Shown here piece after piece: positions 28,077 through 58,498 of a stretch of DNA of 64,000 bases (the first letter of the stretch is position 1; the number at the start of each line of letters is the position of its first letter). Made by a program: the position numbers and the translations under genes. Under the pieces are notes generated by a model. It worked only from the letters and a program-made list of their open reading frames with translations. It had not been told where the DNA came from and searched no databases. The DNA comes from Lachnospiraceae bacterium (GTDB taxonomy: Bacteria > Bacillota > Clostridia > Lachnospirales > Lachnospiraceae): the NCBI GenBank assembly GCA_017470985.1, contig JAFUXA010000011.1:208567-272566 (forward strand), in the 5' to 3' direction.

Positions 28077-28107
28077 GAAAATGCAATTGAAAAAGGAGAA
28101 AAAGAAG

Positions 28108-29226: not shown

Positions 29227-29227
29227 G

Positions 29228-31041: not shown

Positions 31042-31050
31042 GATGAGATT

Positions 31051-31809: not shown

Positions 31810-31831
31810 TGAGAATTTGTGAGGTATAAGG

Positions 31832-33646: not shown

Positions 33647-33650
33647 GAAG

Positions 33651-35078: not shown

Positions 35079-35104
35079 TAATGAGATGAGAAAGGGGGAA
35101 CTTT

Positions 35105-42389: not shown

Positions 42390-42420
42390 TTGAAAAAATG
42401 CTGAAATAGTATATACTATT
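42390..42420 (+). promoter_or_regulatory. Promoter of the second polysaccharide operon
   Basis: TTGAAA at 42390-42395, 16 bases, TATACT at 42412-42417. The -10 box lies inside a perfect 16-base palindrome, AATAGTATATACTATT (42405-42420), a possible operator. The first gene starts 28 bases later after AAAGGAG. Confidence 0.6.
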
Positions 42421-42448: not shown

Positions 42449-44275
42449 ATGAGAGTGAAAATTTCTGATTATATTGCTGAGTTTTTAGTAGAGCAAGGAA
42501 TAAAGTATAACTTTACAGTGCCTGGAGGAGGTGCGATGCATCTAAATGTGTCATTAGGCCATCAAACAGGAATGACAAATATATTTGTACAACATGAGCA
42601 AGCTGCGTCAATAGCGGCAGAGGCATATTATAGGCAAAGTAATGAGTTGCCATTAGTTTGCTGTACAACAGGCCCGGGAGGAACAAATACTCTTACAGGA
42701 GTGTTGGGAGCATGGTTAGATAGTATTCCAATGTTAGTGATATCTGGGCAAGTTAAATATCAGACTACGGTTCGAAGCACTGGATTACCAATGCGAGTAT
42801 TAGGTGATCAAGAATTTGATATCACACCTGTTGTAAAACCTATGACAAAATATGCTGAAATGATAACACGACCAGAATTAGTGAAATATCATCTACAAAA
42901 GGCTTTGTATTTGGCAAAGAATGGAAGACCGGGACCGGTGTGGTTGGACATTCCTTTGGATATACAGTGGGCGTATTTCGATACTGACGATTTTATTGAG
43001 TTTGATGAGACTGAAGTTCAGAATACTAATGCAAGGCCTGTTTCTGACGCGACTTTAGATTTGATAATTGATAAAATAAAAAATGCGAAGCGACCAGTTT
43101 TTTATTCTGGTGTTGAAATAAGAACAGATGGTGCATTTGATGAGTTTAAAGAAGCTGTGGAAAAATTGAAAATTCCAGTAGTTACAAGTTTTGATGGAAT
43201 AGATTTAATGACAGATGATGATTATTATTATGTTGGGCGAGCAGGAGATGTTGGGAATAGATACGGAAACTGGGCTGTTCAAAATGCAGATTTTGTTTTA
43301 ACAGTGGGGAGTAGATTAGGAATGAGACAGGTTGGGCATACACCTGAATCTTGGGCGAGAGAAGCTTTTGTAGTAATGGTTCATCCTGATCCAATGGAAG
43401 TTACAAAGTTCAGAGTTCATGTAGAACTTCCTGTTAGAAGTAATCCAAAAGAGTTCTTAAGAAAATTATGTGATCGAATTGATGACACTTTAGAAGAAAA
43501 AACTGAATGGCTCACAAAATGTAAAGAATGGATGAGAGATTATCCGGTTGTTTCTAAGGAAAGACATTATAATAAAGATGGTTTGGCAAATGCTTATTGT
43601 TTTATGAATGAAGTTAGCAAGGTCGTAAAGGAAGATACACCGATTGTGTCTGCTAATGGAAGTGCATGCGTTGTAGGGGCAAATGCATTTGTGTTGAAGA
43701 AGGGGCAACGTTTTATTTTAAATAGCGGAGCTGCAAGTATGGGGTATGACTTACCGGCGGCTGTGGGTGCTTGTTTTGCGGCAGATAACCATGAAACTGT
43801 TTGTATGTCTGGTGATGGAAGTATACAGATGAATTTACAAGAACTTCAAACAATTGTATTTCATAAACTTCCTATTAAAATATTTGTTATTAATAATGGT
43901 GGTTATCATTCGATGCGACAAACTGAGAATAACTTGTTCCCAGATGTATCTAATATAGGTGTTGGACCTGAAACAGGGGATTTATCATTTCCATCTATGG
44001 AGAAAATTGCAAACGCATATGGAATACCGTATTGCTCGATAGATAACAATATGGATATGCCAGAAAAATTAAAAAAATTTATGGAGATAGATGGCTATGG
44101 AATGTGCGAAATATTTGTAGATACCAATCAAAAGTTTGAGCCAAAGCCTTCCGCAATGAAATTGCCGGATGGAACTTTAGTATCTCCTCCGATGGAAGAT
44201 ATGGCGCCATTTTTACCTCGAGAAGAATTAGAAAAAATAATGATTATACCATTAATGAATGATTGGGAAAAATAA
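42449..44275 (+). CDS. Thiamine-diphosphate enzyme, acetolactate synthase-like
   Basis: A 608-residue three-domain ThDP enzyme. N-terminal PGGGAMHL and the catalytic Glu in VQHEQAASIAAEAY, the TTGPGGTNTLTG turn, a central domain, and the cofactor-binding GDGSIQMNLQELQ with NNGGYHS about 28 residues later. Relatives make or break C-C bonds next to a carbonyl, for example acetolactate synthase, the cyclitol hydrolase IolD and YerE, which adds a two-carbon branch to a CDP-sugar. First gene of the unusual-sugar operon; acceptor unknown. Its stop overlaps the start of the next gene by one base. Confidence 0.85.
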   Translation: MRVKISDYIAEFLVEQGIKYNFTVPGGGAMHLNVSLGHQTGMTNIFVQHEQAASIAAEAYYRQSNELPLVCCTTGPGGTNTLTGVLGAWLDSIPMLVISGQVKYQTTVRSTGLPMRVLGDQEFDITPVVKPMTKYAEMITRPELVKYHLQKALYLAKNGRPGPVWLDIPLDIQWAYFDTDDFIEFDETEVQNTNARPVSDATLDLIIDKIKNAKRPVFYSGVEIRTDGAFDEFKEAVEKLKIPVVTSFDGIDLMTDDDYYYVGRAGDVGNRYGNWAVQNADFVLTVGSRLGMRQVGHTPESWAREAFVVMVHPDPMEVTKFRVHVELPVRSNPKEFLRKLCDRIDDTLEEKTEWLTKCKEWMRDYPVVSKERHYNKDGLANAYCFMNEVSKVVKEDTPIVSANGSACVVGANAFVLKKGQRFILNSGAASMGYDLPAAVGACFAADNHETVCMSGDGSIQMNLQELQTIVFHKLPIKIFVINNGGYHSMRQTENNLFPDVSNIGVGPETGDLSFPSMEKIANAYGIPYCSIDNNMDMPEKLKKFMEIDGYGMCEIFVDTNQKFEPKPSAMKLPDGTLVSPPMEDMAPFLPREELEKIMIIPLMNDWEK

Positions 44276-44931
44276 TGAAAAAATATTCGGCGGTTTTATT
44301 TGATTTAGATGGAACATTATTAGATACAGGGAGCGGCATAAAGAAGGCTGTATGTAAAAGCTTGGATGATATTAAATATGAGATACCAAGTGATGAATTG
44401 TTGTCAAAAATGATTGGACCTCCGCTTAAAAATGGTTTTATAGATGTTATTGGAATTCCTGAAGAATTAGCGAATGTTGCAGTAGATAACTATAGATATT
44501 ATTACGAAAATGAAACTATGCTTGATGCGAAGATATATCATAATATTTTGCAATTGCTTGAACTAATAAAAATAAAAGAGATGCCGATGGGAGTTGCGAC
44601 GTCTAAACCAGAGAAATTTGCGGTGCCAATTTTGGAGCATTTTAATATGTCTCGATTTTTTGAGAACATAACAGGAAGTTCGCTTGATGGACCCCAAAAG
44701 AGCAAATCAGAACTGATAATAGAGTGCGCTAGGAAAATGGGTATTTCAAATCTACAAGAACTTATATATATTGGCGATAGAGGTTCTGATATAAGTGCGG
44801 CGAATTCTTTAAATGTCGACAGTGTAGCTGTATATTGGGGATATGGTTCACGAGAAGAACTTAATTTAGAAAAGGCGACGTATTATGTAGATACTGTTGA
44901 TGACTTGATTGATTTAATGAATGAGGAATAA
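44275..44931 (+). CDS. HAD-family phosphatase
   Basis: A 218-residue hydrolase of the phosphoglycolate-phosphatase-like HAD group. It has motif I DLDGTLLDT, motif II ATSKP, a lysine in SKSELI, and motif IV IGDRGSDISAA. The start is ATG 44275, overlapping the previous stop; an in-frame TTG at 44263 lies upstream. In this operon it probably removes a phosphate from a sugar or cyclitol phosphate intermediate. Confidence 0.87.
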   Translation: MKKYSAVLFDLDGTLLDTGSGIKKAVCKSLDDIKYEIPSDELLSKMIGPPLKNGFIDVIGIPEELANVAVDNYRYYYENETMLDAKIYHNILQLLELIKIKEMPMGVATSKPEKFAVPILEHFNMSRFFENITGSSLDGPQKSKSELIIECARKMGISNLQELIYIGDRGSDISAANSLNVDSVAVYWGYGSREELNLEKATYYVDTVDDLIDLMNEE

Positions 44932-44937
44932 TGTAAT

Positions 44938-45621
44938 ATGGAATTGAATCTAAAAGGCAAAACTGCATTTGTTACAGGGGCGAGTCGAGGAATTGGAGCA
45001 TCTATAAAAAGAACGTTGGAAGAGTGTGGTGCTAATGTGATTGCTCCAACTCGAAGTGAAATGGATTTGTTGTCTAAAGAATCTATAAAAAAGTATTTCG
45101 ACAAGAATAATAATTTGAAAGTTGATATATTTATTCATTGCGCTGGGATTAATTTGCTGGCCGGAATACAAGAAATAAGTGATGAAATAATTGAAAATGT
45201 TTTTCAGGTAAATGTTTATTCTGCTATTCAGATATTGAAATATTTATCAAGTGATATGGTTGAAAAGAAAAACGGGAAAGTTGTTCTTGTTTCTTCATTA
45301 TATTCAATTGTATCGAGAGAACGACGTATTGCATATAGTGCGTCTAAAAATGCTTTAACAGGTTTTATGAAGTCAGTGGCTATTGAATTGGGTAAAGATA
45401 ACATACTAATTAATTCAATCGCTCCCGGCTATGTTATGACGGAAATGACAAAAAAGAATCTTTCAGAGGAAGAGATAAAGAATATTGAAAACAGTATTCC
45501 GACCGGAAGATTTCAAACAGAAGAAGATATAGCTTCATTAGTGGCATTTTTATGCTCGGATTATAACCAAAGTATTACAGGACAATTAATTGCTGTTGAT
45601 GGTGGATTTACTTGTAAATAG
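44938..45621 (+). CDS. Short-chain dehydrogenase/reductase
   Basis: A 227-residue classical SDR: cofactor loop TGASRGIGASI, HCAGINL, catalytic Ser in VLVSSLYS, the YSASK catalytic pair, and the C-terminal GQLIAVDGGF signature. It should reduce a ketone on the sugar or cyclitol intermediate, or oxidise an alcohol, with NAD(P). Six bases after the phosphatase gene; 12 bases before the cyclase gene. Confidence 0.9.
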   Translation: MELNLKGKTAFVTGASRGIGASIKRTLEECGANVIAPTRSEMDLLSKESIKKYFDKNNNLKVDIFIHCAGINLLAGIQEISDEIIENVFQVNVYSAIQILKYLSSDMVEKKNGKVVLVSSLYSIVSRERRIAYSASKNALTGFMKSVAIELGKDNILINSIAPGYVMTEMTKKNLSEEEIKNIENSIPTGRFQTEEDIASLVAFLCSDYNQSITGQLIAVDGGFTCK

Positions 45622-45633
45622 AGGAGGAAAGTG

Positions 45634-46698
45634 ATGGATACAATAAATATTAGTTCTAGATTATATGATTATAGCGTAGATTTCGTAGAATCATTTGACA
45701 AGAAATTAGAAGAATTTGATGAAGCGACAGTTTATGTGATTGATTCTAATGTCTACGATTTGTATAAAGAGAAGTTTAAAAATCTTGATATGAAAAAAAT
45801 ATATCTAATGGAAGCAGTAGAGCATAAAAAGAACATGGACACTGTTTTAGATATAATTTCATTTTGGCAAAAATTGGGAGTGAGAAAGAATTGGAAAGTT
45901 GTATGTTTTGGTGGAGGTATAACTCAAGATGTAACAACAATCGCTGCTAATTTATTTTTGAGAAATATTGATTGGTACTTTTTCCCGACAACATTGCTGT
46001 CGATGAGTGATTCTTGTATAGGTGGAAAGTGCGGAATTAATTTAGGTGCCTACAAAAATCAAATTGGAGTATTTTATCCACCTAAGAAAATATTTATTGA
46101 TGTTAATTTTGTTAAAACGTTGACTGATGGTGATTATTTAAATGGCTGGGGAGAAATATTAAAGTTTTCATTAACAAGTGATAAGCGGTTTTATGAAGAT
46201 TTAAAGAAAGAGGAACAGTATATTCCTTGTGAAAGGATTGCTGATTATATTCATAGGGGACTGTATGTTAAAAAAGTTGTTATTGAAGAAGACGAGTTTG
46301 AATCTGATTTGAGACGAGTTCTTAATTATGGACATACATTTGGACATGCCTTAGAAGCATATACCGATAATGTCATACCTCATGGTAAAGGCGTGATTTG
46401 GGGAATTGATGTTGTAAATTATATTGCAGCAAAAGAAGGATTGATTTCAGAAGAGTATTACTATGATATTAAGCGATTGATAAAAGAAGCATTTTTGAAG
46501 GAAGAAGTAGAAGTGCAAAATGCAGATGAACTTTTTGAAATCATTAAAACAGATAAAAAGGTGAAGGATAATATTATGAGTTTTGCGATGTTAGATGGTG
46601 AAAGCCATTTGATTGTTTATCCGATGCCTATAGATTCAAAATTGAATCAATTATTTAAGGAGTATTTAAAGGAAACACATGAATACTATAACAATTGA
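45634..46698 (+). CDS. Sugar-phosphate cyclase (dehydroquinate synthase-like)
   Basis: A 354-residue member of the family that includes dehydroquinate synthase, 2-deoxy-scyllo-inosose synthase and 2-epi-5-epi-valiolone synthase; these turn an open sugar phosphate into a six-membered carbocycle. Visible: FGGGITQDV (NAD), PTTLLSMSDSCIGGKCGIN, GEILKFSL (metal Glu and Lys), RRVLNYGHTFGHALE and PHGKGVIWG (metal His). All core ligands are there, but DHQS positions such as the AEVIKYG segment differ. A shikimate role is unlikely because no aro genes are near. Start at ATG 45634, 6 bases after GAGGAGG. Confidence 0.85.
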   Translation: MDTINISSRLYDYSVDFVESFDKKLEEFDEATVYVIDSNVYDLYKEKFKNLDMKKIYLMEAVEHKKNMDTVLDIISFWQKLGVRKNWKVVCFGGGITQDVTTIAANLFLRNIDWYFFPTTLLSMSDSCIGGKCGINLGAYKNQIGVFYPPKKIFIDVNFVKTLTDGDYLNGWGEILKFSLTSDKRFYEDLKKEEQYIPCERIADYIHRGLYVKKVVIEEDEFESDLRRVLNYGHTFGHALEAYTDNVIPHGKGVIWGIDVVNYIAAKEGLISEEYYYDIKRLIKEAFLKEEVEVQNADELFEIIKTDKKVKDNIMSFAMLDGESHLIVYPMPIDSKLNQLFKEYLKETHEYYNN

Positions 46699-47998
46699 TT
46701 GTGGTGCAAGTTTTTTAAAAGGCGCTATTTTCGAGGATAATTGTTTAATTAAAACGGTGATAGGATCGTCTCCGATTGTTCATAAAAATGAGCCGATAAC
46801 AGATACAATACAGATTGATGAGCTGGTGAGAAATGTTGAGGCCATGATTATAGAGTTGTCAGATGGCTTAGATGGTTTTAAGTTGTGTATGTCAAATGAA
46901 ATGCATGGATTTTTGCTGTCTGATGAAAAATATAATCCATTAACAGATTATATTTCATGGCAAAAGGAATATGGTAATATCATGGTTGACGGAGCAACTT
47001 CGAAAGAGTATTTCTGTAATAACACATCAGAAGACGCAAGATTAAAAACTGGAATGCCTGTTCGCGCAGGTTTACCTTCCTGTAATTTAACCTATTTGGT
47101 TAGAAATGGAATTATTGGTGAGTCTATTAATGTTATTAAATTTTGGACATTAGGAGATTATGTTTTAAGCAGAATATTTAAATGTGACATGAAGTGTCAT
47201 TTATCAAATGCTGCGGCAACAGGATTGCTTGATTTAACTACTGGAAAATGGAATGACGAATTGATTAATGTTGCAGGCTTAAGAAACATTGTTTTTCCTG
47301 AAATTGGAGATTCGTCTATTATGGTTAATTGGAACCAAAAAGATGTAATCGTTTGTCCCGCTATAGGCGACCAACAAGCTGCGTTATTAGGTAGTGATTT
47401 TGTAAGGGCTAATGATTTGTCATATAACCTAGGGACTGGATCTCAAGTGAGTGTTATTACAGATACTTTAGAGTTGTCAAATGATTATCAAATTAGACCT
47501 TATTTTGATGGGAAATATATAAAAACAGTGCCACATATTCCATCTGGACGAGCACTTAATGTATATATTCGTTTTATTGAAAATATTTTATTGGAATTTG
47601 GTTGTGATGTAGATAGTGATGAGATATGGAAGGTTGTTATTGCTAATGCTAGCGAATGTCAACATAGTAATTTGAAAATTGATATGAGTTTTTTTGAGAA
47701 TCCATTATCAGAAAAAAACGTAGGTTCTATTGATAATATTGGTGAATATGATTTAACCTTATCAAGTTTGATGGCAGGGGTATTTGAATCAATGTCTGAT
47801 AATTATATCAGAGCGCTGTTCAAAATAGGCGTAGCGGAGATTTCATTTAATAGAGTGATTTTTTCTGGTGGAGTTGCTAGAAAAAATAGACTGTTAAGAG
47901 AGTTAATCTTAGGCAAGATGAATTATGACGGTATAGTTTTAGTTGCTGAAAATGAAACAATGTTAGGATTAAAAAAATATGGAGAGTTAATAAAATGA
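46679..47998 (+). CDS. FGGY-family carbohydrate kinase
   Basis: A 439-residue kinase of the xylulokinase/sedoheptulokinase superfamily. N-terminal phosphate-binding DCGASFLKGAIF, CMSNEMHGF, the catalytic-side IGDQQAALLG, and the adenosine-binding YNLGTGSQVSV plus SGGVARKNRL near the end. Shorter than many FGGY kinases (about 480-500) and closest by feel to sedoheptulokinase. It overlaps the cyclase gene by 20 bases. A seven-carbon ketose phosphate made by such a kinase would be a fitting substrate for a cyclase of the valiolone type. Confidence 0.85.
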   Translation: MNTITIDCGASFLKGAIFEDNCLIKTVIGSSPIVHKNEPITDTIQIDELVRNVEAMIIELSDGLDGFKLCMSNEMHGFLLSDEKYNPLTDYISWQKEYGNIMVDGATSKEYFCNNTSEDARLKTGMPVRAGLPSCNLTYLVRNGIIGESINVIKFWTLGDYVLSRIFKCDMKCHLSNAAATGLLDLTTGKWNDELINVAGLRNIVFPEIGDSSIMVNWNQKDVIVCPAIGDQQAALLGSDFVRANDLSYNLGTGSQVSVITDTLELSNDYQIRPYFDGKYIKTVPHIPSGRALNVYIRFIENILLEFGCDVDSDEIWKVVIANASECQHSNLKIDMSFFENPLSEKNVGSIDNIGEYDLTLSSLMAGVFESMSDNYIRALFKIGVAEISFNRVIFSGGVARKNRLLRELILGKMNYDGIVLVAENETMLGLKKYGELIK

Positions 47999-48927
47999 AA
48001 AAGATAGCGATAATTGGTGCCACGGGTGCAATTGGGACGGCTGTGATAGATTCGTGTATAAATAGGGGGACGGAAGTTTATGTTTTTGTACGCAAAGAAT
48101 CTAAAAGAGTGTCAAGGATTCCAAATAATGAGTTGGTACATATTGTGAATTGTGGTATGGAAGAAATGGATGTGTTTGATGAAACATCACTTCCTAATAT
48201 AGATGCGTTTTATTTTTTTGCATGGAAAGGAACTCATGGCACCGATGCACGAAATCAAATGTATGATCAGATAGAAAATATTAAATATGCAATAGATGCT
48301 GTTCATTTAGCGCATCGTTTGGGCTGTAAAACATATGTTTATGCTGGTACACAAGCTGAATATGGCAGGATAGAGGGCGTGATTAGTCCAGATACTCCTT
48401 GTAATCCGGAAAATGGATATGGAATAGCCAAACATAGCGCCGGACAGATGACACAAATTGAGTGTGGAAAATATGGAATCAAACACGTATGGGGTAGGAT
48501 TGTGAGTACTTATGGACCACGTGATGGAGATAATTCAATGGTATCATGCGCAATAAGAGACTGCTTGAATGGTAACACTCCTAAATTTACATTAGGAGAG
48601 CAAATATGGGATTATTTATATAGCGGTGATGCCGGTGAAGCTTTTTATCTCATGGGAGAAAAAGGTAGAAATAATGCAATTTATATTGTTGGAAGCGGAA
48701 AAACAAAAACACTTAGAGAATATATAGAAATTATATGTAAAAACGCAAATCCGGAAGTTACACCGATTTTTGGCGCTGTCCCATATATGGATAAGCAAGT
48801 GATGCATTTACAGGCGGATATCTCATCGTTGAGTGAAGATACAGGATTTAGACCAAAAGTTGATTTTGAAACAGGTATTATAAAAACAATAGAGTGGTTT
48901 GAAAAATTCGGAAATAGAGGAGAGTAA
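47995..48927 (+). CDS. Extended SDR, nucleotide-sugar epimerase/dehydratase-like
   Basis: A 310-residue NAD-dependent enzyme. N-terminal IGATGAIG, YAGTQAEYG, the catalytic Tyr-Lys pair in GYGIAKHSAG, then GRIVSTYGPRDG and DYLYSGDAGEA. This is the UDP-/CDP-sugar epimerase fold; the exact step (epimerase, reductase or dehydratase) is not clear. It overlaps the kinase gene by 4 bases (ATGA), so translation is coupled. Confidence 0.88.
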   Translation: MKKIAIIGATGAIGTAVIDSCINRGTEVYVFVRKESKRVSRIPNNELVHIVNCGMEEMDVFDETSLPNIDAFYFFAWKGTHGTDARNQMYDQIENIKYAIDAVHLAHRLGCKTYVYAGTQAEYGRIEGVISPDTPCNPENGYGIAKHSAGQMTQIECGKYGIKHVWGRIVSTYGPRDGDNSMVSCAIRDCLNGNTPKFTLGEQIWDYLYSGDAGEAFYLMGEKGRNNAIYIVGSGKTKTLREYIEIICKNANPEVTPIFGAVPYMDKQVMHLQADISSLSEDTGFRPKVDFETGIIKTIEWFEKFGNRGE

Positions 48928-48929
48928 AA

Positions 48930-50546
48930 ATGAAAAAAAACATACAGTTGTTAGATTGTACATTGCGTGATGGTGCGTATATTTGTGATTCGAGATTTGG
49001 AACACCAGCTATCAAAGGCATTATAAAAAAGATGGCTGATGCAAATGTGGATATTATTGAATGCGGGTGGTTAAAGAATCAAGAGCATGTTCCTGGAACA
49101 TCTTTTTTTCATGTTCCGTCAGATTTGGAAAAATATATAATCGGAGGTAAGTCTCCATATTCGACATATGTGACAATGATAGATTGGGATAGATATGATT
49201 TGGATTATTTACCTGAGTGCGATGGAAAGTCTATTGATGCTATTAGAGTTGTGTTCCCTCACGGAAAGCATGTAGAAGGAATTGAAGTTGGTAAAAAGAT
49301 TGCTGAAAAAGGATATAAAGTATATTTTCAGGCTGCAAATACTTTGGCATATTCAAATGATGATTTGATAGCACTTGCAAAATGTATTAATGAGGCAAAA
49401 CCAGTTGCGCTTTCTGTTGTAGATACTTTTGGCGCAATGTATTTTGAAGATTTAGAAAGAATAGTTTCTGTTCTTGATAAAGAATTGAATAATGACATTA
49501 TGTTAGGTTTTCATTCCCATAATAATCAGCAGTTGTCATTTGCATTAACTATGCATTTTGTTGAGTTGCTAAATAGTACAGGACGAGGAATTATTGTAGA
49601 TTCAAGTTTATGCGGAATGGGAAGAGGTGCTGGTAATGCAACAACAGAGCTGGTGGTATCTTATCTTAATAAAAAACATCAGTGCAATTATGACTTGAAT
49701 ATTATTCTTGATGCAATTGATCAGTATATGGGGGTTTTTCATGAGAAATATACCTGGGGGTATTCTACTCCATACTTTATTGCTGGAATGTATTGCTGTC
49801 ATGTAAATAATATTGCTTATTTATTAGATAATCATAGAACTAATGCACAGGACATGAAAAATATTATTGAGTCGTTGTCTCCTGAAGATAGAAAAAAATA
49901 TGATTATGATTTGTTGGAGTCTAAATATGTCGAAAACCAAAATAGAATTGTTGATGACGAGAATGCACTTGAACAATTGGCAAATGAAATTGGGAATAGA
50001 AAGGTTTTGCTAATTGCTCCGGGTAGAACTACAATTGATTGTAGAGATGATATAGAGGCTTTTATTGAAAAGGAGAATCCTATTGTTATTGGAGTCAATG
50101 CGATAAATAAGAACTATTCTATGGACTACTTGTTTATGATAAATCGTGCAAGATATGAGTATGCAAGAGATGTATATCCTGAAGAGTTTAATAAAGTGAA
50201 AAAAATCCTTTTGTCAAATATTCATACAGAATCATCTGAAAATGAGATGGTTATTAATTATAATAGAGTAATTAAACGTGGATGGAAACATTTTGATAAT
50301 GCTGTAATAGATTGCTTGAGACTGCTTGCATCTATTCATGTTAATAATGTTGCTTTGGCAGGATTTGATGGTTTCAAGACAAAGTATAATGAAAGTTATG
50401 CAGATGCCTCATTGCCTACTTTAAATACTGATGGTAAATGGGAAGATTTAAATGTGGAAATTAAACAAATTTTTGCTGATTTTCTAGAAACAAGTGGTGT
50501 AGATATGCAAATTCAGTTTGTAACAGACAGCGATTTTGAAAGATAG
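48930..50546 (+). CDS. DRE-TIM aldolase/lyase fused to a Rossmann-like domain
   Basis: A 538-residue two-domain protein. The N-terminal part (about 1-310) is an HMGL-like TIM barrel: DCTLRDGAY with the metal Asp, VVDTFGAMY, the metal His pair in GFHSHNN, and SLCGMGRGAGN. Relatives such as 4-hydroxy-2-oxovalerate aldolase split or join pyruvate and an aldehyde. The C-terminal part (about 350-538) begins KVLLIAPGRT and has GVNAIN and LAGFDGF; it recalls DUF115 or CMP-sugar-handling folds, but I cannot assign it. It starts 2 bases after the previous stop. A role in extending a sugar chain by C-C bond formation is inferred. Confidence 0.78.
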   Translation: MKKNIQLLDCTLRDGAYICDSRFGTPAIKGIIKKMADANVDIIECGWLKNQEHVPGTSFFHVPSDLEKYIIGGKSPYSTYVTMIDWDRYDLDYLPECDGKSIDAIRVVFPHGKHVEGIEVGKKIAEKGYKVYFQAANTLAYSNDDLIALAKCINEAKPVALSVVDTFGAMYFEDLERIVSVLDKELNNDIMLGFHSHNNQQLSFALTMHFVELLNSTGRGIIVDSSLCGMGRGAGNATTELVVSYLNKKHQCNYDLNIILDAIDQYMGVFHEKYTWGYSTPYFIAGMYCCHVNNIAYLLDNHRTNAQDMKNIIESLSPEDRKKYDYDLLESKYVENQNRIVDDENALEQLANEIGNRKVLLIAPGRTTIDCRDDIEAFIEKENPIVIGVNAINKNYSMDYLFMINRARYEYARDVYPEEFNKVKKILLSNIHTESSENEMVINYNRVIKRGWKHFDNAVIDCLRLLASIHVNNVALAGFDGFKTKYNESYADASLPTLNTDGKWEDLNVEIKQIFADFLETSGVDMQIQFVTDSDFER

Positions 50547-50552
50547 GAAATT

Positions 50553-51512
50553 ATGAAAAAGATATCTGTGATGACCCCTGTATATAATGAAGAGGGGAAT
50601 ATTAATAATTTATATAATGCGGTTAAAGAACAGTTTGATAAGTTGCCACAATATGAATATGAACATATTTTTATAGATAATTATTCGACTGATGGATCAC
50701 GTGAAATTCTTAGAGATATTGCTAGGCGTGATAAGAAGGTAAAGGTGATTTTTAATGCTAGGAACTTCGGACCTAATCGCTCCGGTACTTATGGAATGTT
50801 GCAGGCAACGGGAGATGCTTTGATATGTATTGTATGTGATTTGCAGGATCCACCATCTATGATTCCTACATTTCTTGAAAAATGGGAAGAGGGATATAAG
50901 GTTGTAATGGGACAGAAAACTAGTAGTAAAGAAAGTCCTATAATGTATGGTGTTCGTAAATTATATTATAAGATAATTAATGATTTGGCTGAGACTGAGC
51001 AGTTGCCAAATGTAACGGGCTACGGTTTGTTTGATCAAGAAGTTCTTGAAACTATTCGCTGGATGGATGACCCAGATCCATACATTAGAGGTCTAGTAAC
51101 ACAGCTTGGATACAAATATTGTACTGTAGAATATACGCAGTCTGCTCGTACAGAAGGAAAGTCTAGCTATAACTTCTTTAGGTATTTCGATTTTGCTATG
51201 ACAGGTGTGACACACGTGTCACAGAAGCCGTTAAGACTCGTTACTTTCGCAGGTATGTTTTTTGCAATTATTAGTTTTATTGTTGCGGTCATTTACCTGT
51301 TTTGGAAATTGCTAAATTGGAATAGTTTTTCAATGGGAACAGCGCCTATATTAGTTGGAATGTTTTTCTTGGGATCGATTCAACTCGTTGTTGTGGGTGT
51401 GATCGGAGAGTATGTGGGAGCTATTCTTACAAAAGTGACAAAACGCCCAATGGTTGTTGAGGAAGAAAGAATTAATTTTGAGGATAAAAAGGCGGAGGAT
51501 GAACAAATTTGA
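50553..51512 (+). CDS. GtrB-like polyprenyl-phosphate glycosyltransferase
   Basis: A 319-residue GT2 protein of the dolichol-phosphate mannose synthase/GtrB type. N-terminal TPVYNEEGNI, DNYSTDGS, the acceptor segment NARNFGPNRSG, metal-binding DLQDPP, and the TEGKSSYN motif before two membrane helices (about 230-255 and 268-292). It charges undecaprenyl phosphate with one sugar at the inner face. With GtrA (59621) and the GT-C enzymes downstream it forms the classic three-part system for decorating a polymer outside the membrane. Confidence 0.9.
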   Translation: MKKISVMTPVYNEEGNINNLYNAVKEQFDKLPQYEYEHIFIDNYSTDGSREILRDIARRDKKVKVIFNARNFGPNRSGTYGMLQATGDALICIVCDLQDPPSMIPTFLEKWEEGYKVVMGQKTSSKESPIMYGVRKLYYKIINDLAETEQLPNVTGYGLFDQEVLETIRWMDDPDPYIRGLVTQLGYKYCTVEYTQSARTEGKSSYNFFRYFDFAMTGVTHVSQKPLRLVTFAGMFFAIISFIVAVIYLFWKLLNWNSFSMGTAPILVGMFFLGSIQLVVVGVIGEYVGAILTKVTKRPMVVEEERINFEDKKAEDEQI

Positions 51513-53176
51513 AGACTAAAATAAAAAGTATTAAAGATTCTTATATATTTAGAACAGCAGTTTTTTTTATATTAATCTTAATCACTTTGCTTTTGATTTT
51601 TAAAAATGATTTGTTTTACAATTATAATGTCGTGGATTCAAAAGTTCTTGAACCTCATAATTATGTTGGATATGAAATGATTGATGGACAATATGTACCA
51701 CAAGGTGATGCCTATATTTATATTGATGGGTATAATGCTAATATAAATGAATCATGCATTTTTTTTGAAAAAGATTTACAAGAGGCACCTCAAATAGAAT
51801 TGACATATTATATTTTGGGTGAAAATGGTGTTGAAGAAAAGCTGGTTGAGACCAAAAATGTTCGTAAAAATTTTCATGAGATTCAATTTCATTCAGATCA
51901 GTATAGTATCAGTGCAATAAAAATAAGAACTCTTTCGGAAGATGGCACGTATTATCTTTCGCTTCCAAACATAGTTGTAAATATTTATAGTAGAAGTTTT
52001 TGCCTATTAAAAAAAGATTTAAAGTGGGTAGCTAAAATTATGTTGCTAGCCTTTGTTTCACTAATAATTTCTGCTTTTGTTATGTATCCCCAAAAAACTG
52101 ATAAGATGGTTAAAACTGAGCGGAAATCAAACCTTGAACTATTGCGAGTGATTTGTATGTTGGCTTTGATAGGTCATCATTTAGCTGTACATGGAGGTGC
52201 TTTAACTATAGATGAGACTCAGCCATATTATATTATAGGGACTTTTTTTGTTCCTATAGGTAGGATTTGTTTTATAGCATTTATTGCATTAAGTATGTAT
52301 TTTTTAGTTGATATGGACTTTAGTGCAAAAAGATTTTTGAAAGTATGGATGCAAGTGATTGCTTATTCGGTTTTGTTGACTGTAGTTGCATATTTTATGG
52401 GGGCAAACATAAAAGGGACCGATTTTATTAGTAGTTTTTTTGTAATGATAGGTAATAATCATGGATTTGCAGCAAGCTATCTTATTTTTTTGCTTTTGCA
52501 TCCGTTTGTACAGAAACTTACTAAGAATCTATCGAAGAAAAATGTTATTTTGCTTATTGTAATACTTGCATGGATACAGGTGGCTTCTGGAATAATGAAA
52601 ACTATTTGCGGATATGACCAACCGGTGCATTCAGAGGTTACATTGTTTGTGTTATGTTATATGATTTCCTTATACCTAAAAAAATGGCCTTTCCAGTTAT
52701 TGTATAACAATAAGTTTTTGTGTTCTATGTTTGTTTTTATTTACTCTATAGCTATAATTTCGAGGATGAACTATAGTGGTGATGGATTAAATGTAATAAA
52801 AACTATACTTGGTTATTTATGTGGTGATGCATCGGCTGTAATATCGATACTTGGTGGATATTTGTTGTTTTATCTATTTTATAATTTAAAAATTGAACGG
52901 AATAATATGATAAATAAACTTGCAACTGTCACCTTTGGGATATTGTTAATTCATGATCATAATTTTTTGAGACAATTGTTTTGGAACGAATATATTCGTA
53001 CACAAGACATATTTAATTATTCGATGAATGGTATTCGATTTTTTGTTGATATTATATTAATTTATTTTGTGCTTGGTATGATTGATTATATTAGACAAAA
53101 TATATTTGAAGTTAGATTAATTAAGTCAGATAGATTTAAGATAATAAGTGAGAAAATAGATGGAATATTTAAGTGA
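51509..53176 (+). CDS. Acyltransferase family 3 with N-terminal outer domain
   Basis: A 555-residue membrane protein. A helix at about 15-32, an extracellular beta-type domain at about 40-165, a second helix, then an acyltransferase-3 domain from about 205 starting KSNLELLRVICMLALIGHH, with about ten helices. The added outer domain might hold the sugar acceptor. The start is TTG, overlapping the previous stop by 4 bases, 10 bases after GGAGG. The end overlaps the next gene by 17 bases. Confidence 0.82.
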   Translation: MKTKIKSIKDSYIFRTAVFFILILITLLLIFKNDLFYNYNVVDSKVLEPHNYVGYEMIDGQYVPQGDAYIYIDGYNANINESCIFFEKDLQEAPQIELTYYILGENGVEEKLVETKNVRKNFHEIQFHSDQYSISAIKIRTLSEDGTYYLSLPNIVVNIYSRSFCLLKKDLKWVAKIMLLAFVSLIISAFVMYPQKTDKMVKTERKSNLELLRVICMLALIGHHLAVHGGALTIDETQPYYIIGTFFVPIGRICFIAFIALSMYFLVDMDFSAKRFLKVWMQVIAYSVLLTVVAYFMGANIKGTDFISSFFVMIGNNHGFAASYLIFLLLHPFVQKLTKNLSKKNVILLIVILAWIQVASGIMKTICGYDQPVHSEVTLFVLCYMISLYLKKWPFQLLYNNKFLCSMFVFIYSIAIISRMNYSGDGLNVIKTILGYLCGDASAVISILGGYLLFYLFYNLKIERNNMINKLATVTFGILLIHDHNFLRQLFWNEYIRTQDIFNYSMNGIRFFVDIILIYFVLGMIDYIRQNIFEVRLIKSDRFKIISEKIDGIFK

Positions 53177-55304
53177 TAAAAGACATATATTAAAAAAAAC
53201 ATATGCGTTGTTATTTGTGCTGTTTTTTTCTACATTATTAAGTTGCTTTTTTATGAATAAGACTTTTTTTACAGCAGAAGGATGGTATAGTTATTATGCA
53301 AAATTAATAAATACAGGAGGGGTTGTATATAAAGATTTTGAATATTTATTTACACCTTTGTACATGTACATTATTGCATTAGTTACAAAAATTTTTGGCA
53401 CAAATATTATTGTGTTGAGAATAATGGGGGTATTAGTTTTTGACATTATTGCTGTATTGATATTTTTAATATGTAAAAATTTGTTTAAAGATTATATTGC
53501 GGCATTAGTGTCCATAGTAGGTGTTTTTTATTTTCAGTCTGACAATTATCAGGTTTTTTATGATTATGTTCGAGTGATGGATATTTTTAGCTTTTTGTCT
53601 GTTTTTCTAATGCTTAAGTTTTTGTTTACGACAGATAAATTGGGGAAAAAAGTAGTATATATTGTATTATGGGGATTGACTAGTGCATGTTATTTTTTGA
53701 TAAAACAAAATATGGGCGCTTTATCAACTGTATATTATATAGGAGTGATTATATTTTGCGGTTTTTTTATGAGGCAAAAGGTAAAGACAGTGCTAAAATA
53801 TGTGTTGTGCTTTTTAGTTTCTTTTTTGGTGCCTATATTAGTATTTTGTGCTTTTATGTATAAGCAAGATATGCTACAGATAATGTTTCAATCTGTTTTT
53901 ATGAATGCGATTGGTGCAAAAGGCGGATTGGCTGTGATTTTGTTTAGGTGGATAGGTAATGTTCTACCGGAATTAATTAAAGTGTTGCCATATGCAATTT
54001 GTTATATAGCTTTATGCATATGTTTTGAAATGATTTCAGGGAAATATTTAGACAAAAAAATAAAAGTGAAAAGTGTAGAATTATTATTTGTTGGCATAAT
54101 ACTGTTTATTGGCATTATATTAATAATAGTAAATGAAAATATAGGAATTTTTATATCATCTCAAGATAGATTGAAGCCTATTATAATTTTTACACTTGAT
54201 ATTTTTATAATTATATATGAAATGATAAAACTGATATCGGATTTTAAGAATAAAAATGAAGTTGATTTGAAAAATATATCATATGTAATAGTTGGAGGTG
54301 CTTTTTTTGCTATAACTTATGGAGCTGGTATGTCAGGCGGCTTGTCTATTGGTGAATCTGGAATAGGTATTGCATTTGTTATAGGATATTTGATAAATAA
54401 AATCGAGTTTATAGGGGGAATAGTTGCTAGAGGCTTTGCGTATTATTTTTGTATTATGTCATGTTTGACATCTATGGCTATAAAAGTGATTGCGCCAAAT
54501 CAATGGTGGGGTATCAATGAGGAGAGCATTTATGAAATGAAGTACGAAACTGATATTCCAATATTAAAGGGAATAAAAGTGTCAGAAAGTGAAAAAAAAA
54601 TGTATGAAGGTATTTGTGAAATCGTGAATGAAAATACCACTGAAGAGGATAGTATTTATTGTTTCCCACATATTCCTATAATATACGAAATGACTAATAG
54701 AATGGATCCTGGAGTTTATGGTAAAGTTCAATGGTTTGATGTATCAGATAATGAAACATTAAAAAAGGATACAGAAATCATTTCTGAAATGAAGCCTAGA
54801 GTTATTATTATATATAATTTAAAAGATAGTACATACGAAGGTCATGAGGATTTATTTAATTATGGTGAGTTATCTGGAACTAGATATATGCGCGATTTTT
54901 TATATGAATTTGTGAATACAGAAAACTATAGATATGAGGGGACATTTATATCTGCGGATAATAATATTTCCGTTTATGTAGTGGATGATAAAAAGACTGA
55001 TCGTTTGGCAAATCTTTATGAAGGTACGGGGACGAAAAATGATCCATATATTATTCGTGATGACACAGATTTAGTAAATTTGTCTATGTTGGTAAATCAG
55101 AATGAAAACTTAGATGGAATATATTTCGAACAGCAAAATGATATAAGTTTAAAGAATGTTTGGTGGATCCCGATTGGATTTAATGAAAATAAAAGTGAAT
55201 TTATATATAATTTTAATGGAAAGTATGTATATGATATAAATAATTGTGATATTAATTATAGTAATATATATAAGAGCATTAATAAATCATACTCAAGTCA
55301 ATAA
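53160..55304 (+). CDS. GT-C type membrane glycosyltransferase with C-terminal outer domain
   Basis: A 714-residue protein. It has about 11 membrane helices in the first 450 residues and, in the first outer loop, FTAEGWYSYYAKLINTGG, as in GT-C enzymes that use polyprenyl-phosphate sugars, where an acidic residue follows the first helix. A soluble outer domain follows (about 460-620). The last 90 residues begin GTGTKNDPYIIRDDTDLVNL and go on with WWIPIGF, which resembles the first turns of GLUG-type beta-helix domains. The ribosome site is weak and translation is probably coupled to the overlapping upstream gene. Confidence 0.75.
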   Translation: MEYLSDKRHILKKTYALLFVLFFSTLLSCFFMNKTFFTAEGWYSYYAKLINTGGVVYKDFEYLFTPLYMYIIALVTKIFGTNIIVLRIMGVLVFDIIAVLIFLICKNLFKDYIAALVSIVGVFYFQSDNYQVFYDYVRVMDIFSFLSVFLMLKFLFTTDKLGKKVVYIVLWGLTSACYFLIKQNMGALSTVYYIGVIIFCGFFMRQKVKTVLKYVLCFLVSFLVPILVFCAFMYKQDMLQIMFQSVFMNAIGAKGGLAVILFRWIGNVLPELIKVLPYAICYIALCICFEMISGKYLDKKIKVKSVELLFVGIILFIGIILIIVNENIGIFISSQDRLKPIIIFTLDIFIIIYEMIKLISDFKNKNEVDLKNISYVIVGGAFFAITYGAGMSGGLSIGESGIGIAFVIGYLINKIEFIGGIVARGFAYYFCIMSCLTSMAIKVIAPNQWWGINEESIYEMKYETDIPILKGIKVSESEKKMYEGICEIVNENTTEEDSIYCFPHIPIIYEMTNRMDPGVYGKVQWFDVSDNETLKKDTEIISEMKPRVIIIYNLKDSTYEGHEDLFNYGELSGTRYMRDFLYEFVNTENYRYEGTFISADNNISVYVVDDKKTDRLANLYEGTGTKNDPYIIRDDTDLVNLSMLVNQNENLDGIYFEQQNDISLKNVWWIPIGFNENKSEFIYNFNGKYVYDINNCDINYSNIYKSINKSYSSQ

Positions 55305-55399: not shown

Positions 55400-56635
55400 A
55401 TGAAAAGTAAATTAAAAGATGACGCAATACTAAAAATAAGTATGATAATTATAGGGACAGGTACAATTATTTATTGGTTGATAATGATAGTATCGCGAGG
55501 AGAATTACTTACAACATATTTCGTGAATGATACAACTAATACATATATGGATTATTTTAATATGTTGGCTAACGTATCTGATCTTGACCCGTATAAAACG
55601 TATGCCAATTACCCACCACTTGTTTTTTGCTTTTTGCGCGTAATGTATCATATGCTGCCCATTATGCCTGGTGGGGATGATGGTTTTATCTTACGAAACT
55701 ATGAACCAGCACAATTAGGGTATATCTTATTTATAATAACAGTTTTATTTTGTTTTATTGTACTGACTTCAACTTGGATAAAAAATGATGATAAATATAA
55801 GTGGATGTATACATTCTTATTGCTCACATCAGGACCAATGATTTTTACTATAGAGAGAGGAAATTTTATTATAGTTGCATTGATAGCAGTAATGTTTTTT
55901 CTACGCTACTATGATAGTGACGATATAAAACTAAGGATTTTGGCATATATAGCATTATCTGTTGCGGCAGCAATTAAAACATATCCGGCTGTGTTTGGCT
56001 TGTTCGTAGTAGACAAACGTCGCTGGAAAGAAGTTTTCTTTTTAGTGGTGAGCGGGGCGATAACATTTTTTGCTCCTTTTATGGCTTTTGGAGGGAAAAG
56101 AGATGTTATCAGGATGTTCCAAGGGATTATGATTTCAAGTGGAGACCAGGCTACTATAGGTTCAAATTATAATTTTTCATTAGTTAATTTAAGAAATATG
56201 ATTTTAGAAATATTTAATATTAATTTGTGCTTAAGTGATTTGTTTTTTCAACTTGGCGGATTAGTCATTAGTGTAATTATGTTTATGTTGGCGGATGAAT
56301 TTTATAAAAAAGTAATTGCATTAACGCTGATGTGCATATGGACACCGGCATTTAGCTATACATATATGCTTGTATTGTTTATACCTATTTTATTAATTTT
56401 ATGTACTAAAAATAATACGAGCAAAATTGATTACTTTTATGGCATGTGCTTGTCATTTTTATTATGCCCAATCGCATTACCGTTTGTATTTGAAGAATCA
56501 ATTTATAAGTTCCCAATATCGTATAGTACCGCAATTTTAAATATAATATTATTAGTGATGGCTGGTGTTTTGTTAGTGGATGTGATGTCAAATAAATTGA
56601 GAATAATCAAAACATGTAAGGTGGATAATGCTTAA
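55400..56635 (+). CDS. GT87/DUF2029-like membrane glycosyltransferase
   Basis: A 411-residue protein with about ten membrane helices. DPYKTYANYPPLV in the first large loop and AAIKTYPAVFGLF in the middle are characteristic of the DUF2029/GT87 group, polyprenol-phosphate-sugar dependent transferases acting outside the membrane. The start follows AGGGAG. A 95-base gap precedes it; no convincing promoter or terminator lies there. It overlaps the next gene by 8 bases. Confidence 0.8.
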   Translation: MKSKLKDDAILKISMIIIGTGTIIYWLIMIVSRGELLTTYFVNDTTNTYMDYFNMLANVSDLDPYKTYANYPPLVFCFLRVMYHMLPIMPGGDDGFILRNYEPAQLGYILFIITVLFCFIVLTSTWIKNDDKYKWMYTFLLLTSGPMIFTIERGNFIIVALIAVMFFLRYYDSDDIKLRILAYIALSVAAAIKTYPAVFGLFVVDKRRWKEVFFLVVSGAITFFAPFMAFGGKRDVIRMFQGIMISSGDQATIGSNYNFSLVNLRNMILEIFNINLCLSDLFFQLGGLVISVIMFMLADEFYKKVIALTLMCIWTPAFSYTYMLVLFIPILLILCTKNNTSKIDYFYGMCLSFLLCPIALPFVFEESIYKFPISYSTAILNIILLVMAGVLLVDVMSNKLRIIKTCKVDNA

Positions 56636-57725
56636 GAGAAAAATGGGTAATAGAAGATATAACTATATGATAGACTTTATGAAATGTGTAGCCATGCTAT
56701 GCGTTGTGTCGTTGCATGTGGGGATAATAGCAGAAACAGTTTGTGGATTTGAATATAGTGAGAAAACGTGGATATTTAAAACGCCAGCGTGGTCTGCAGT
56801 ATGGATTTTTTTCACATTAAGTGGAGCGCTTAATGGAATATCATTTTATAATGAAAAATATACGTTTGATAAAAAAGGATTAATACAATTTTATAAATCG
56901 AGAATATTTAAAGTGCTTATTCCTACATTGATATATATATTATTGGCTGTATGTCTTATTGATTTAAAAGCTGTTTTAGATAATCCGATTGTTATTTTAA
57001 AAGTATTAACGCTTAGTTATTATAATAATCCAGCGATAACTTCAATTGGAGCAACCTGGTATGTTTTTGTATTAATAAAGTTATATATAATTGCGCCTTT
57101 AATAGCATATTTCGTTCATATGTTAATGGATGGGAGAACAATTAGAAGACATGTTGTAGTTATAATATTAATTGCTTTAATAGGGTGTTGTTTTAGGATT
57201 TTAACATATAAGTTAGGGATACCATGGGGGATGATATATGTTCCATGGTATATGAATCTTGACCTGTTTGTCTCAGGAATGGTTGCAGCACATTCCTGTA
57301 AATGCTGTAATAGTAAAAAGGATAATGGTTTAATAAAACCTACTTGTGGGATTGTTTTTTTTATTACACTCATAGTTATAAACATAAGAATATATTATAT
57401 TGCGGATGAAAACGTGACTGCAATGTTCTTGTATCAGTATATATTTCCTACAATATGGTTGATGTTTGTTTGTGTATATTTTATGATGTACATTGATTGC
57501 GATTTTTCTCAAGGATTTTTGATAAAAGGTGTAGAAAAACTAGCTCAAGTTTCATTCTATATTTATCTTGTACATTCAATGGTGGCGCAGCAAATTGCAC
57601 CATATATTGCAATAGAATCAGTCAATAAGAGATATATTGTTTTATTATTAATAACATTTTTGATTTCATTATGTTTAGCTGTGGTTATGTATCGTGCAGT
57701 TAATTATCAAAGGAGGGAAAAGTGA
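56628..57725 (+). CDS. Acyltransferase family 3 membrane protein
   Basis: A 365-residue protein with about ten membrane helices. The N-terminal YMIDFMKCVAMLCVVSLHV supplies the family's Asp and His, and the first loop has the expected SGALNG turn. Third acyltransferase of this kind in the window, so the surface polymer probably carries several acyl groups. It overlaps rfbF by 4 bases. Confidence 0.83.
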   Translation: MLKRKMGNRRYNYMIDFMKCVAMLCVVSLHVGIIAETVCGFEYSEKTWIFKTPAWSAVWIFFTLSGALNGISFYNEKYTFDKKGLIQFYKSRIFKVLIPTLIYILLAVCLIDLKAVLDNPIVILKVLTLSYYNNPAITSIGATWYVFVLIKLYIIAPLIAYFVHMLMDGRTIRRHVVVIILIALIGCCFRILTYKLGIPWGMIYVPWYMNLDLFVSGMVAAHSCKCCNSKKDNGLIKPTCGIVFFITLIVINIRIYYIADENVTAMFLYQYIFPTIWLMFVCVYFMMYIDCDFSQGFLIKGVEKLAQVSFYIYLVHSMVAQQIAPYIAIESVNKRYIVLLLITFLISLCLAVVMYRAVNYQRREK

Positions 57726-58498
57726 AAGTAGTATTATTAGCAGGAGGGTTGGGAACAAGAATATCAGAAGAATCTGAATTCAAACCAAAGCCAATGATTG
57801 AAATTGGTGGTATGCCAATTTTGTGGCACATTATGAAGGAGTATTCTTATTATGGATTTAATGAATTTGTAATATGTGCTGGATATAAGCAACAGATGAT
57901 TAAGGAATGGTTTAGGAATTATTTCTTATTTACATCTGATATTACATTTGATCTAACAGAAGAATATAAGATGGAAGTACATGATAAGCATACTGAACCA
58001 TGGAAAGTAACGGTTGTTGATACAGGACTTGGAACTATGACAGGTGGACGTGTTAAGCGTATTCAGAAGTATATTGGTGATGAACCATTTATGCTTACTT
58101 ATGGCGATGGTGTTTGTGATGTTAATATAAAGGAACTGTTAGACTTTCATCAAGAACATGGTAAGATTGCAACTCTTACATCCGTTGTTATGGAACAGGA
58201 AAAGGGAATCCTTGATATTGATGAAGATAATTCAGTTAGAGCATTTAGAGAGAAGAGCCAGTTAGATGGTTCTCCTATTAATGCGGGGTATATGGTCCTT
58301 AATCCTGAGATTTTCAATTATATTGACGGAGATGATACTGTTCTAGAGAAGAAACCATTAGAGACTATAGCTCAAAATGGTGAATTAATGTCATATAATC
58401 ATACTGGTTTTTGGCAGTGTATGGATACTAAAAAAGAAAAAGAAAAGCTTGAAAAGCTGTGGGCAAAAAATATGGCGCCTTGGAAAAAATGGGATTAG
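57722..58498 (+). CDS. rfbF: Glucose-1-phosphate cytidylyltransferase
   Basis: Makes CDP-glucose from CTP and glucose-1-phosphate. The 258-residue protein has the nucleotidyltransferase loop LAGGLGTRISEE, KPKPMIEIGG, the metal site TYGDGVCDV, and FWQCMDTKKEK near the end; length matches RfbF/DdhA. The start is GTG after AAAGGAGG. With the dehydratase that follows it gives CDP-4-keto-6-deoxyglucose. Its codon use is closer to the glf operon than to the genes just before it. Confidence 0.94.
   Translation: MKVVLLAGGLGTRISEESEFKPKPMIEIGGMPILWHIMKEYSYYGFNEFVICAGYKQQMIKEWFRNYFLFTSDITFDLTEEYKMEVHDKHTEPWKVTVVDTGLGTMTGGRVKRIQKYIGDEPFMLTYGDGVCDVNIKELLDFHQEHGKIATLTSVVMEQEKGILDIDEDNSVRAFREKSQLDGSPINAGYMVLNPEIFNYIDGDDTVLEKKPLETIAQNGELMSYNHTGFWQCMDTKKEKEKLEKLWAKNMAPWKKWD

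Follow-up and report, generated by a model that had tools for sequence, protein, structure and literature searches.

A conserved Lachnospiraceae operon with a cyclase of a separate sugar-phosphate-cyclase clade and probable YerE-type CDP-sugar branching genes

Gene content and recurrence of the operon

Which surface sugar might be made by an operon that combines a thiamine diphosphate (ThDP)-dependent enzyme, a sugar-phosphate cyclase (CYC), an FGGY-family kinase (KIN), and an aldolase (ALD)? This question is raised by contig JAFUXA010000011.1 of Lachnospiraceae bacterium GCA_017470985.1, of which a stretch of 64,000 nucleotides (nt), referred to here as the window, was analyzed. Carbocyclic monosaccharides are rare in bacterial surface polymers, and their biosynthesis is mostly unassigned. 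The operon is real, conserved, and unusual, and we class it as a variant of YerE-type cytidine diphosphate (CDP)-sugar branching. Its compact gene set, found in Firmicutes, unites a cyclase of a separate sugar-phosphate-cyclase clade with branching genes of the YerE type. The broader proposal in a preliminary description of this locus, a surface sugar that is carbocyclic or branched, is supported. The interpretation given there holds in part; the YerE-like character of the ThDP enzyme, the continuation of the run into RfbF and RfbG, and the hint at a 3-deoxy-2-ulosonic acid provided by the aldolase did not figure in it.

A check of the open reading frames (ORFs) at 42449-50546 found all seven present, intact, and co-directional, with junctions of -13, +6, +9, -20, -4, and +2 nt between them and of +6 nt to a gene of glycosyltransferase family 2 (GT2), which confirms the series of seven close or overlapping genes followed by a lipid-type transferase that had been reported. 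The order of Pfam families is ThDP (PF02775/02776/00205), HAD_2, classical short-chain dehydrogenase/reductase (SDR), DHQ_synthase with DHQS_C, FGGY_N, Epimerase, HMGL-like, and Glycos_transf_2, and the catalytic motifs are retained in the ThDP enzyme, the aldolase, the kinase, and the cyclase. The extent initially given to the operon, 42449-50546, is correct for these seven genes, but the same-strand run continues beyond 50546 with genes for an acyltransferase, a GT-C-like protein, a GT87 enzyme, a further acyltransferase, RfbF, RfbG, and GtrA, the largest intergenic gap as far as GtrA being 95 nt. RfbF was the only nucleotidyltransferase recognized in the run by Pfam and NCBIfam scans. The features of the region are as follows:

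42390..42417, + strand: weak promoter-like site (TTGAAA-16-TATACT, 10/12 matches) upstream of the ThDP gene
42449..44275, + strand: ThDP-dependent C-C lyase/ligase, YerE-like (JanthE-like), from Pfam, a PDB match, a tree, and motifs
44263..44931, + strand: HAD-family phosphatase (Pfam/NCBIfam), with translation perhaps beginning at an internal ATG at 44275
44938..45621, + strand: classical SDR oxidoreductase (Pfam/NCBIfam; the copy in locus L052 is 57% identical)
45631..46698, + strand: CYC, sugar-phosphate cyclase that belongs to a clade of its own and has an active site of the 3-dehydroquinate synthase (DHQS) type, from profiles, a tree, and residues
46679..47998, + strand: KIN, FGGY-family kinase with the catalytic Asp conserved (Pfam, motifs)
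47995..48927, + strand: extended SDR, i.e. NAD-dependent epimerase/reductase (Pfam)
48930..50546, + strand: ALD, DRE-TIM pyruvate-type aldolase (residues 1 to ~290) plus a C-terminal domain, from Pfam, alignment, and AlphaFold
50553..51512, + strand: GT2 polyprenyl-phosphate sugar transferase, PgfS/ArnC-like (Pfam/NCBIfam)
51509..53176, + strand: membrane acyltransferase (Acyl_transf_3; Pfam)
53160..55304, + strand: large membrane protein, GT-C-like (PMT_2 at 23.8 bits, under the cut-off of 26.1)
55400..56635, + strand: GT87 membrane glycosyltransferase (domain scan)
57722..58498, + strand: RfbF, glucose-1-phosphate cytidylyltransferase (TIGR02623, 379 bits, cut-off 300)
58518..59624, + strand: RfbG, CDP-glucose 4,6-dehydratase (TIGR02622, 433 bits, cut-off 278)
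59621..60163, + strand: GtrA-type membrane protein (PF04138)

The recurrence of this gene set was followed from the window's own genome (G000; 2.38 Mb, 35 contigs, 88.8% complete). A kinase search at E <=1e-20 matched 15 of 299 genomes of the family, with close matches in the own genome and in G188 (47%) and the other 13 at 25-32%, and 4 of 398 genomes of the phylum, namely the own genome, G680 at 47%, and two more at 25%. When genome contigs were scanned, two loci were obtained, one in a Dorea metagenome-assembled genome (MAG; L051, taken as G188) and one in an Erysipelotrichaceae MAG (L052). The cyclase was found in 3/189 genomes of G680's family (G680, G1141, and G1110; the order and the family are here the same 189 genomes) and in 1/381 of a class sample, which was the window itself. 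These low match counts indicate that the cassette is rare and patchy in distribution. The cyclase is thus present at six loci, i.e. the window and five other genomes or MAGs, and the co-occurrence proposed as a check is borne out for the ThDP gene, KIN, and ALD: the ThDP gene is adjacent to or within 2.2 kb of CYC in 6/6 loci, KIN is near it in all five loci whose contig reaches far enough (L115 stops after CYC), and ALD in all four (L052 and L115 stop too early). CYC together with ThDP, KIN, and ALD also occurs beyond the genus of the window, in G188 of the same family, and beyond its class, in family f62. Pairwise identity is 60-83% for CYC (6 rows), 62-88% for ALD (4), 47-81% for the ThDP enzyme (6), and 43-71% for KIN (4), whereas the HAD, SDR, and extended SDR genes vary among loci; L051 and L053 carry extra genes for a VOC protein, an FkbM-type methyltransferase, an epimerase-family protein, and a radical SAM/SPASM protein. 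That the cyclase has these neighbors again in five further genomes or MAGs shows that the gene set is more than chance. A search of plasmids with the ThDP enzyme at a strict E of 1e-60 gave no match, and no paper found in the open-access literature describes the gene set, subscription journals lying outside this search. In the Dorea MAG, both the cassette (L051 16228-21306) and RfbF/RfbH (L132, another contig) lie, as judged by eye, beside flagellar-type genes, and these gene neighborhoods suggest a role in flagellin glycosylation.

The cyclase and its likely substrate

The best NCBIfam model for CYC is TIGR04425 in 6/6 cases, with 319-337 bits under a cut-off of 400, and the scores on the aroB model TIGR01357 are 241-256 bits in 6/6 (window 247), under a cut-off of 305. 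The genome has a separate, ordinary AroB (L001) on another contig, which reaches 381 bits on the aroB model, and this supports CYC as a dedicated sugar-phosphate-cyclase paralogue beside the cell's own AroB. The preference of CYC for TIGR04425 is the opposite of that found in the seven references scanned (own AroB, another AroB, L067, and rows taken as aminodehydroquinate synthase (aminoDHQS), 2-epi-5-epi-valiolone synthase (EEVS), 2-deoxy-scyllo-inosose synthase (DOIS), and EboD), all of which scored higher on aroB; for example, the EEVS reference L064 reached 226 bits on aroB against 174 on TIGR04425. The labels aminoDHQS (L066) and EboD (L065) were inferred from neighboring genes, the records reading "iron-containing alcohol dehydrogenase" and "3-dehydroquinate synthase." Among 61 genomes, no TIGR04425 member was found above the cut-off. 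In a tree of 37 rows, the six CYCs form one clade (100/100) on a stem of 3.74, and a branch of 97/92 separates this clade from 19 AroBs of the order. The cyclase phylogeny suggested in the preliminary description therefore excludes CYC from the AroBs of the order and did not produce the refuting outcome named there, a cyclase inside true DHQSs, but its split from six plasmid-borne AroBs is a weak branch (74/45); the 25 AroBs are not one clade in this tree, and several references are long branches. In addition, 15 columns that are near-fixed in AroB (>=22/25) are fixed otherwise in CYC (>=5/6), 10 of them within residues 86-134. Because of the profile scores and these column replacements, and despite the weak 74/45 branch, CYC is regarded as distinct from AroB; it is a cyclase clade of its own, outside both AroB and TIGR04425 by their cut-offs, although TIGR04425 is its best model.

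With the numbering and residue roles that we take from the A. nidulans enzyme, 15 of the 16 DHQS active-site and metal positions are as in AroB in all six CYCs, the exception being T153, which is replaced by Cys. Residues on the carboxylate side are among those retained, and K250, R264, N268, and H275 are all kept in CYC, whereas the EEVS reference has M, S, D, and P at these positions, the DOIS reference (L063) replaces R264 and N268, and the EboD reference replaces K250, R264, and N268, in a comparison that used a single reference each for EEVS and DOIS. All four residues are likewise present in the row taken as aminoDHQS, and the aminoDHQS substrate retains a carboxylate. The four retained residues lead us to favor, by a modest degree, a 2-keto acid resembling 3-deoxy-D-arabino-heptulosonate 7-phosphate (DAHP), carboxylate included, as the probable substrate of CYC. 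CYC therefore shares with AroB most of the active site but differs from it in its sub-cut-off score, its long-stem clade, its replaced columns, and an operon with ThDP, kinase, and aldolase genes; with EEVS and DOIS it shares the protein family and the metal ligands but has the Arg and Asn that both references lack, as well as the Lys and His that the EEVS reference also lacks. The assignment of CYC as an EEVS-like, valiolone-type cyclase acting on a C7 ketose phosphate, as first proposed, was dropped as the leading reading on the basis of these residues and of the profile scores, with one reference of each kind. A different replacement pattern is seen in the cyclase of a Streptomyces microflavus plasmid (L067, 3893-5008), which, unlike every compared reference, has Ala at R264 and Gln at K356 and is flanked by genes for a hypothetical protein and a flavoprotein.

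The ThDP enzyme, the aldolase, and the kinase

The closest solved relative of the ThDP enzyme is 8rph, which we take to be JanthE (399 bits over query residues 2-599), followed by acetolactate synthase at 235 bits. A GDG motif is found in 14/14 ThDP rows, and the glutamate of the HEQ motif in all 13 rows that reach that region, whereas 8rph has the CDG motif that is given for JanthE in the portion of PMC12247030 consulted. According to the same portion, YerE adds an acyl group to CDP-3,6-dideoxy-4-keto-glucose and other ketones, and ErwE prefers hydroxylated 2-oxo acids (PMC12247030). C-branching of CDP-keto sugars by enzymes of the YerE type leads to yersiniose and erwiniose and, with MMAR_2332, to caryophyllose. 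The window resembles the YerE/ErwE/JanthE system in its related ThDP enzyme, its CDP-glucose genes, with the CDP-keto-sugar genes RfbF and RfbG in the same run as the ThDP gene, its extended SDR (relatives of which occur at 45-52% identity in L108, L109, L113, L114, and L121 and at 32% in L112 and L126), and its lipid-type transferase, and differs from it in the canonical GDG, the added aldolase, kinase, and cyclase, the lack of RfbH above cut-off in its genome, and the host family, Lachnospiraceae. Across 14 loci, RfbF is present in 9, RfbG in 7, RfbH in 9, and ALD in 12, the contigs of L052 and L115 being too short to show ALD. Eight of these loci have the ThDP gene without CYC and KIN, and RfbH occurs in 7/8 and RfbF in 6/8 of them, L111 having neither. 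The ThDP enzymes of L121 and L126, which are cyclase-free and bear RfbH, are 50-51% identical to that of the window and group with those of the window, L052, and L115 at 88/93. This grouping and the association with RfbH/RfbF in cyclase-free loci suggest that the ThDP enzyme probably functions independently of the cyclase. Branching of a CDP-keto sugar by this enzyme is, on these sequence relationships, the part of the pathway that we consider likely. A variation on this theme may be present on a Desulfobaculum plasmid (L130, 4837-9005), where RfbH, a split transketolase, and a one-domain aldolase are encoded consecutively, and the transketolase may stand in for the branching enzyme.

In ALD, a DRE-TIM aldolase domain is followed by a second domain of ~200 residues at the C terminus that has no family match, and the protein's AlphaFold model is confident, with a mean predicted local distance difference test score of 91.0 and a predicted template modeling score of 0.89. 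It shares the DRE-TIM motif and an alignment over residues ~1-290 with 4-hydroxy-2-oxovalerate aldolase and with the putative aldolase of PDB 3dxi but differs in the extra domain and in scores below the NCBIfam cut-offs (TIGR03217, 70 bits against 286; PRK08195, 85 against 229). The CTLRDG motif is kept in 22/22 rows and HxHNN in 21/22, with HxHEN in one. At E <=1e-50, relatives occur in 52/392 genomes of the order, and 20 regions, 18 of them chosen for ALD matches, were taken for context. Six close ALDs (61-65%) lie beside a ThDP enzyme, five of these with RfbF and RfbH, as does that of L126 (35%). All 11 distant ALDs (L116-L125 and L127) are accompanied in their region by a cytidylyltransferase of the KdsB or PseF type, six of these having been assessed by NCBIfam and five by eye: KdsB is above cut-off in L116, L122, and L123, and L118, L121, and L124 have PseF-like matches of 61-68 bits, under 206. 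A KdsC-type phosphatase is found in 6/11 of these loci (three above the YrbI-family cut-off, three by eye), and on a Leisingera plasmid (L129) ALD, KdsB, and HAD genes are consecutive as annotated. Because distant relatives neighbor KdsB/PseF-type genes, the two-domain aldolases may make 3-deoxy-2-ulosonic acids from pyruvate. The data agree only in part with a replacement of KdsA by ALD. On TIGR01362, KdsA is above cut-off in 1/11 distant-ALD genomes, with weak matches of 107-135 bits in four others, and NeuB (PF03102) passes a low Pfam cut-off in 10/11, with six at 222-325 bits, which sit on other contigs than ALD, and four at 33-44 bits, which coincide with the weak KdsA matches and are taken for DAHP synthases; strong KdsA and strong NeuB are both absent in 4/11 (G941, G800, G166, and G030). 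The two-domain aldolase is a candidate for a so far unrecognized synthase that would form 3-deoxy-2-ulosonic acids in a pyruvate-dependent manner; this, if true, would explain the KdsB/KdsC-type genes of genomes that lack KdsA. A one-domain relative of ALD is also present on a Priestia plasmid, in surroundings without sugar genes.

The kinase was initially described as sedoheptulokinase-like, but the profile evidence goes no further than a generic FGGY enzyme, in comparisons that did not include a sedoheptulokinase reference. Pfam recognizes only FGGY_N, the N-terminal half, glycerol kinase scores highest among NCBIfam models, with 44 bits where the cut-off is 590, and gluconate and glycerol kinases are the best matches of its profile among solved structures. 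The MHG and GDxQ motifs are invariant, which suggests an active enzyme. The distant FGGY kinases (15 genomes, 25-32%) were tried as a guide to the substrate and discarded, CYC, ThDP, or ALD genes being found in 0/9 contexts examined.

A proposed route and its alternatives

We tentatively propose, at somewhat less than an even chance, that the operon serves the synthesis of a nucleotide-linked C-branched 6-deoxyhexose, with a branch leading off to a carbocyclic sugar acid. RfbF and RfbG, both of them intact, would provide CDP-4-keto-6-deoxyglucose, and the ThDP enzyme would decarboxylate a 2-oxo acid and attach the resulting acyl carbanion to a ketone, which in this CDP sugar would be at C4; YerE and ErwE perform such a C4 acyl addition on the 3-deoxy analogue of the proposed sugar. 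The acceptor could be the CDP sugar or a ring ketone. ALD would join pyruvate and an aldose to a 4-hydroxy-2-oxo (3-deoxy-2-ulosonic) acid. Then, in the cyclase-bearing subgroup only, KIN would phosphorylate the terminal hydroxyl of this acid, and CYC would convert the product to a 3-dehydroquinate (DHQ)-like carbocycle, which, because the cell already has AroB, would be a stereoisomer or homologue of DHQ. This succession of aldolase, kinase, and cyclase, which is chemically coherent with the pocket kept by the cyclase and would mimic the first two steps of the shikimate pathway starting from pyruvate, is in that particular order rather doubtful. Carbonyl groups would be adjusted by the SDRs, and transport of the sugar via a polyprenyl carrier to a surface glycan would fall to the GT2, GtrA, and GT-C-type proteins. 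The transferase had been called GtrB-like, a label that gives way to PgfS and ArnC, its closest NCBIfam models (208 bits, cut-off 500, and 128 bits, cut-off 529), the GtrA-type protein being that at 59621-60163; a polyprenyl-type transferase as such is supported, with relatives of 45-46% identity in four related clusters. In its boldest form, which we hold to be a shade more doubtful again, a pyruvate-based copy of the first two shikimate steps would yield a new carbocyclic sugar acid; united with the ThDP-branched CDP-deoxyhexose, it would be placed on glycans of the wall or, perhaps, on flagellin in the Dorea MAG. If true, this would be a carbocycle-forming surface-sugar route outside the sugar-phosphate-cyclase routes known to us.

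Several observations weigh against this proposal. The link between the carbocycle and branched-sugar halves is putative, and a DHQ-like product, not being a 2-oxo acid, is excluded as the ThDP donor. In the tree, ALDs from loci with and without the cyclase are intermingled, so that ALD probably does the same job without the cyclase and need not feed CYC, and the six strong NeuBs, rather than ALD, could serve the cytidylyltransferases of the distant loci. RfbH was found above cut-off in 10/13 genomes, the exceptions being the own genome, G841, and G1110; in the own genome, the 3,6-dideoxy substrate of the YerE type is therefore either absent or encoded in the missing 11%. RfbG (TIGR02622) is above cut-off in only 3/5 cyclase-bearing genomes, neither RfbG nor RfbH is above cut-off in G1110 (83% complete), and RfbF and RfbH of G188 lie on another contig than the cassette. 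Finally, the branch that splits CYC from the plasmid-borne AroBs is the weak one noted above.

As an alternative, CYC might be a divergent extra DHQS making ordinary DHQ and the rest a yersiniose- or erwiniose-type branched-sugar operon with no new carbocycle. The almost fully kept DHQS active site, the dependence of the placement of CYC relative to AroBs outside the order on the 74/45 branch, and the occurrence of ThDP, ALD, RfbF, and RfbH without CYC and KIN in L108, L109, L110, L112, L113, and L126 are in agreement with this explanation. We nevertheless consider it unlikely, since the cell's own AroB is above cut-off, the replaced columns and long stem set CYC apart, CYC travels with ThDP, KIN, and ALD into another genus and another class, and the kinase would be left without a role. 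The order of the two enzymes might also be reversed, with CYC using a phosphate already in the cell (DAHP, or the ALD product of a phosphorylated aldose) and KIN phosphorylating the carbocycle for transfer. In acarbose-type pathways a cyclitol kinase acts after the cyclase, and HAD genes near ALD in the cyclase-free L108, L113, and L124 suggest that ALD may use phosphorylated aldehydes. HAD is, however, not near CYC in L051 and L114 (the contigs of L052 and L115 are too short), and a transfer of this kind has only RfbF as a recognized nucleotidyltransferase in the run, which makes this order improbable. A third explanation, to which we give slightly less weight still, is that KIN and CYC act late, KIN phosphorylating the ThDP-added side chain on the CDP sugar and CYC closing the ring to a bicyclic or spiro sugar like bradyrhizose or caryose. 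Going from chain to phosphate to ring is chemically sensible, and CYC and KIN are added onto an otherwise complete branching set, but CYC keeps its carboxylate-side residues, although decarboxylation leaves no carboxylate, and a CDP sugar poorly fits the buried DHQS pocket. For bradyrhizose itself, the portion of PMC4743980 consulted calls the genes unknown and proposes an 11-gene cluster. Least probable is the valiolone-type route outlined at first, in which KIN would phosphorylate a heptulose of the sedoheptulose type, an EEVS-like cyclase would form a valiolone-type cyclitol, and ThDP or ALD would extend it for loading on polyprenyl phosphate: the 20-nt overlap of the KIN and CYC genes and the weak deepest split of the tree (74/45), which puts CYC with EEVS, EboD, and L067, fit it, but the retention of K250, R264, N268, and H275 and the reversed profile preference of the one EEVS reference speak against it, as do the ROK-family rather than FGGY gene that follows that reference and the lack of a sedoheptulokinase signal in KIN profile comparisons, made without a sedoheptulokinase reference.

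Further features surround the operon. Promoter-like sites such as that upstream of the ThDP gene are not enriched in the region (109 against 114.9 in shuffles). Just upstream of the operon, a partial frame for an IS21-type IstB ATPase (41465-42085, - strand) is probably an insertion-sequence remnant, and a protein with an AbiH abortive-infection domain is encoded at 38769-39539, within the polysaccharide region. A surface glycan locus lies farther upstream (28081-37336), with genes for a UDP-galactopyranose mutase (Glf) and an ABC exporter recognized by eye, together with genes for a Glft2_N-domain protein, a group 1 glycosyltransferase, and a choline-binding-repeat protein.

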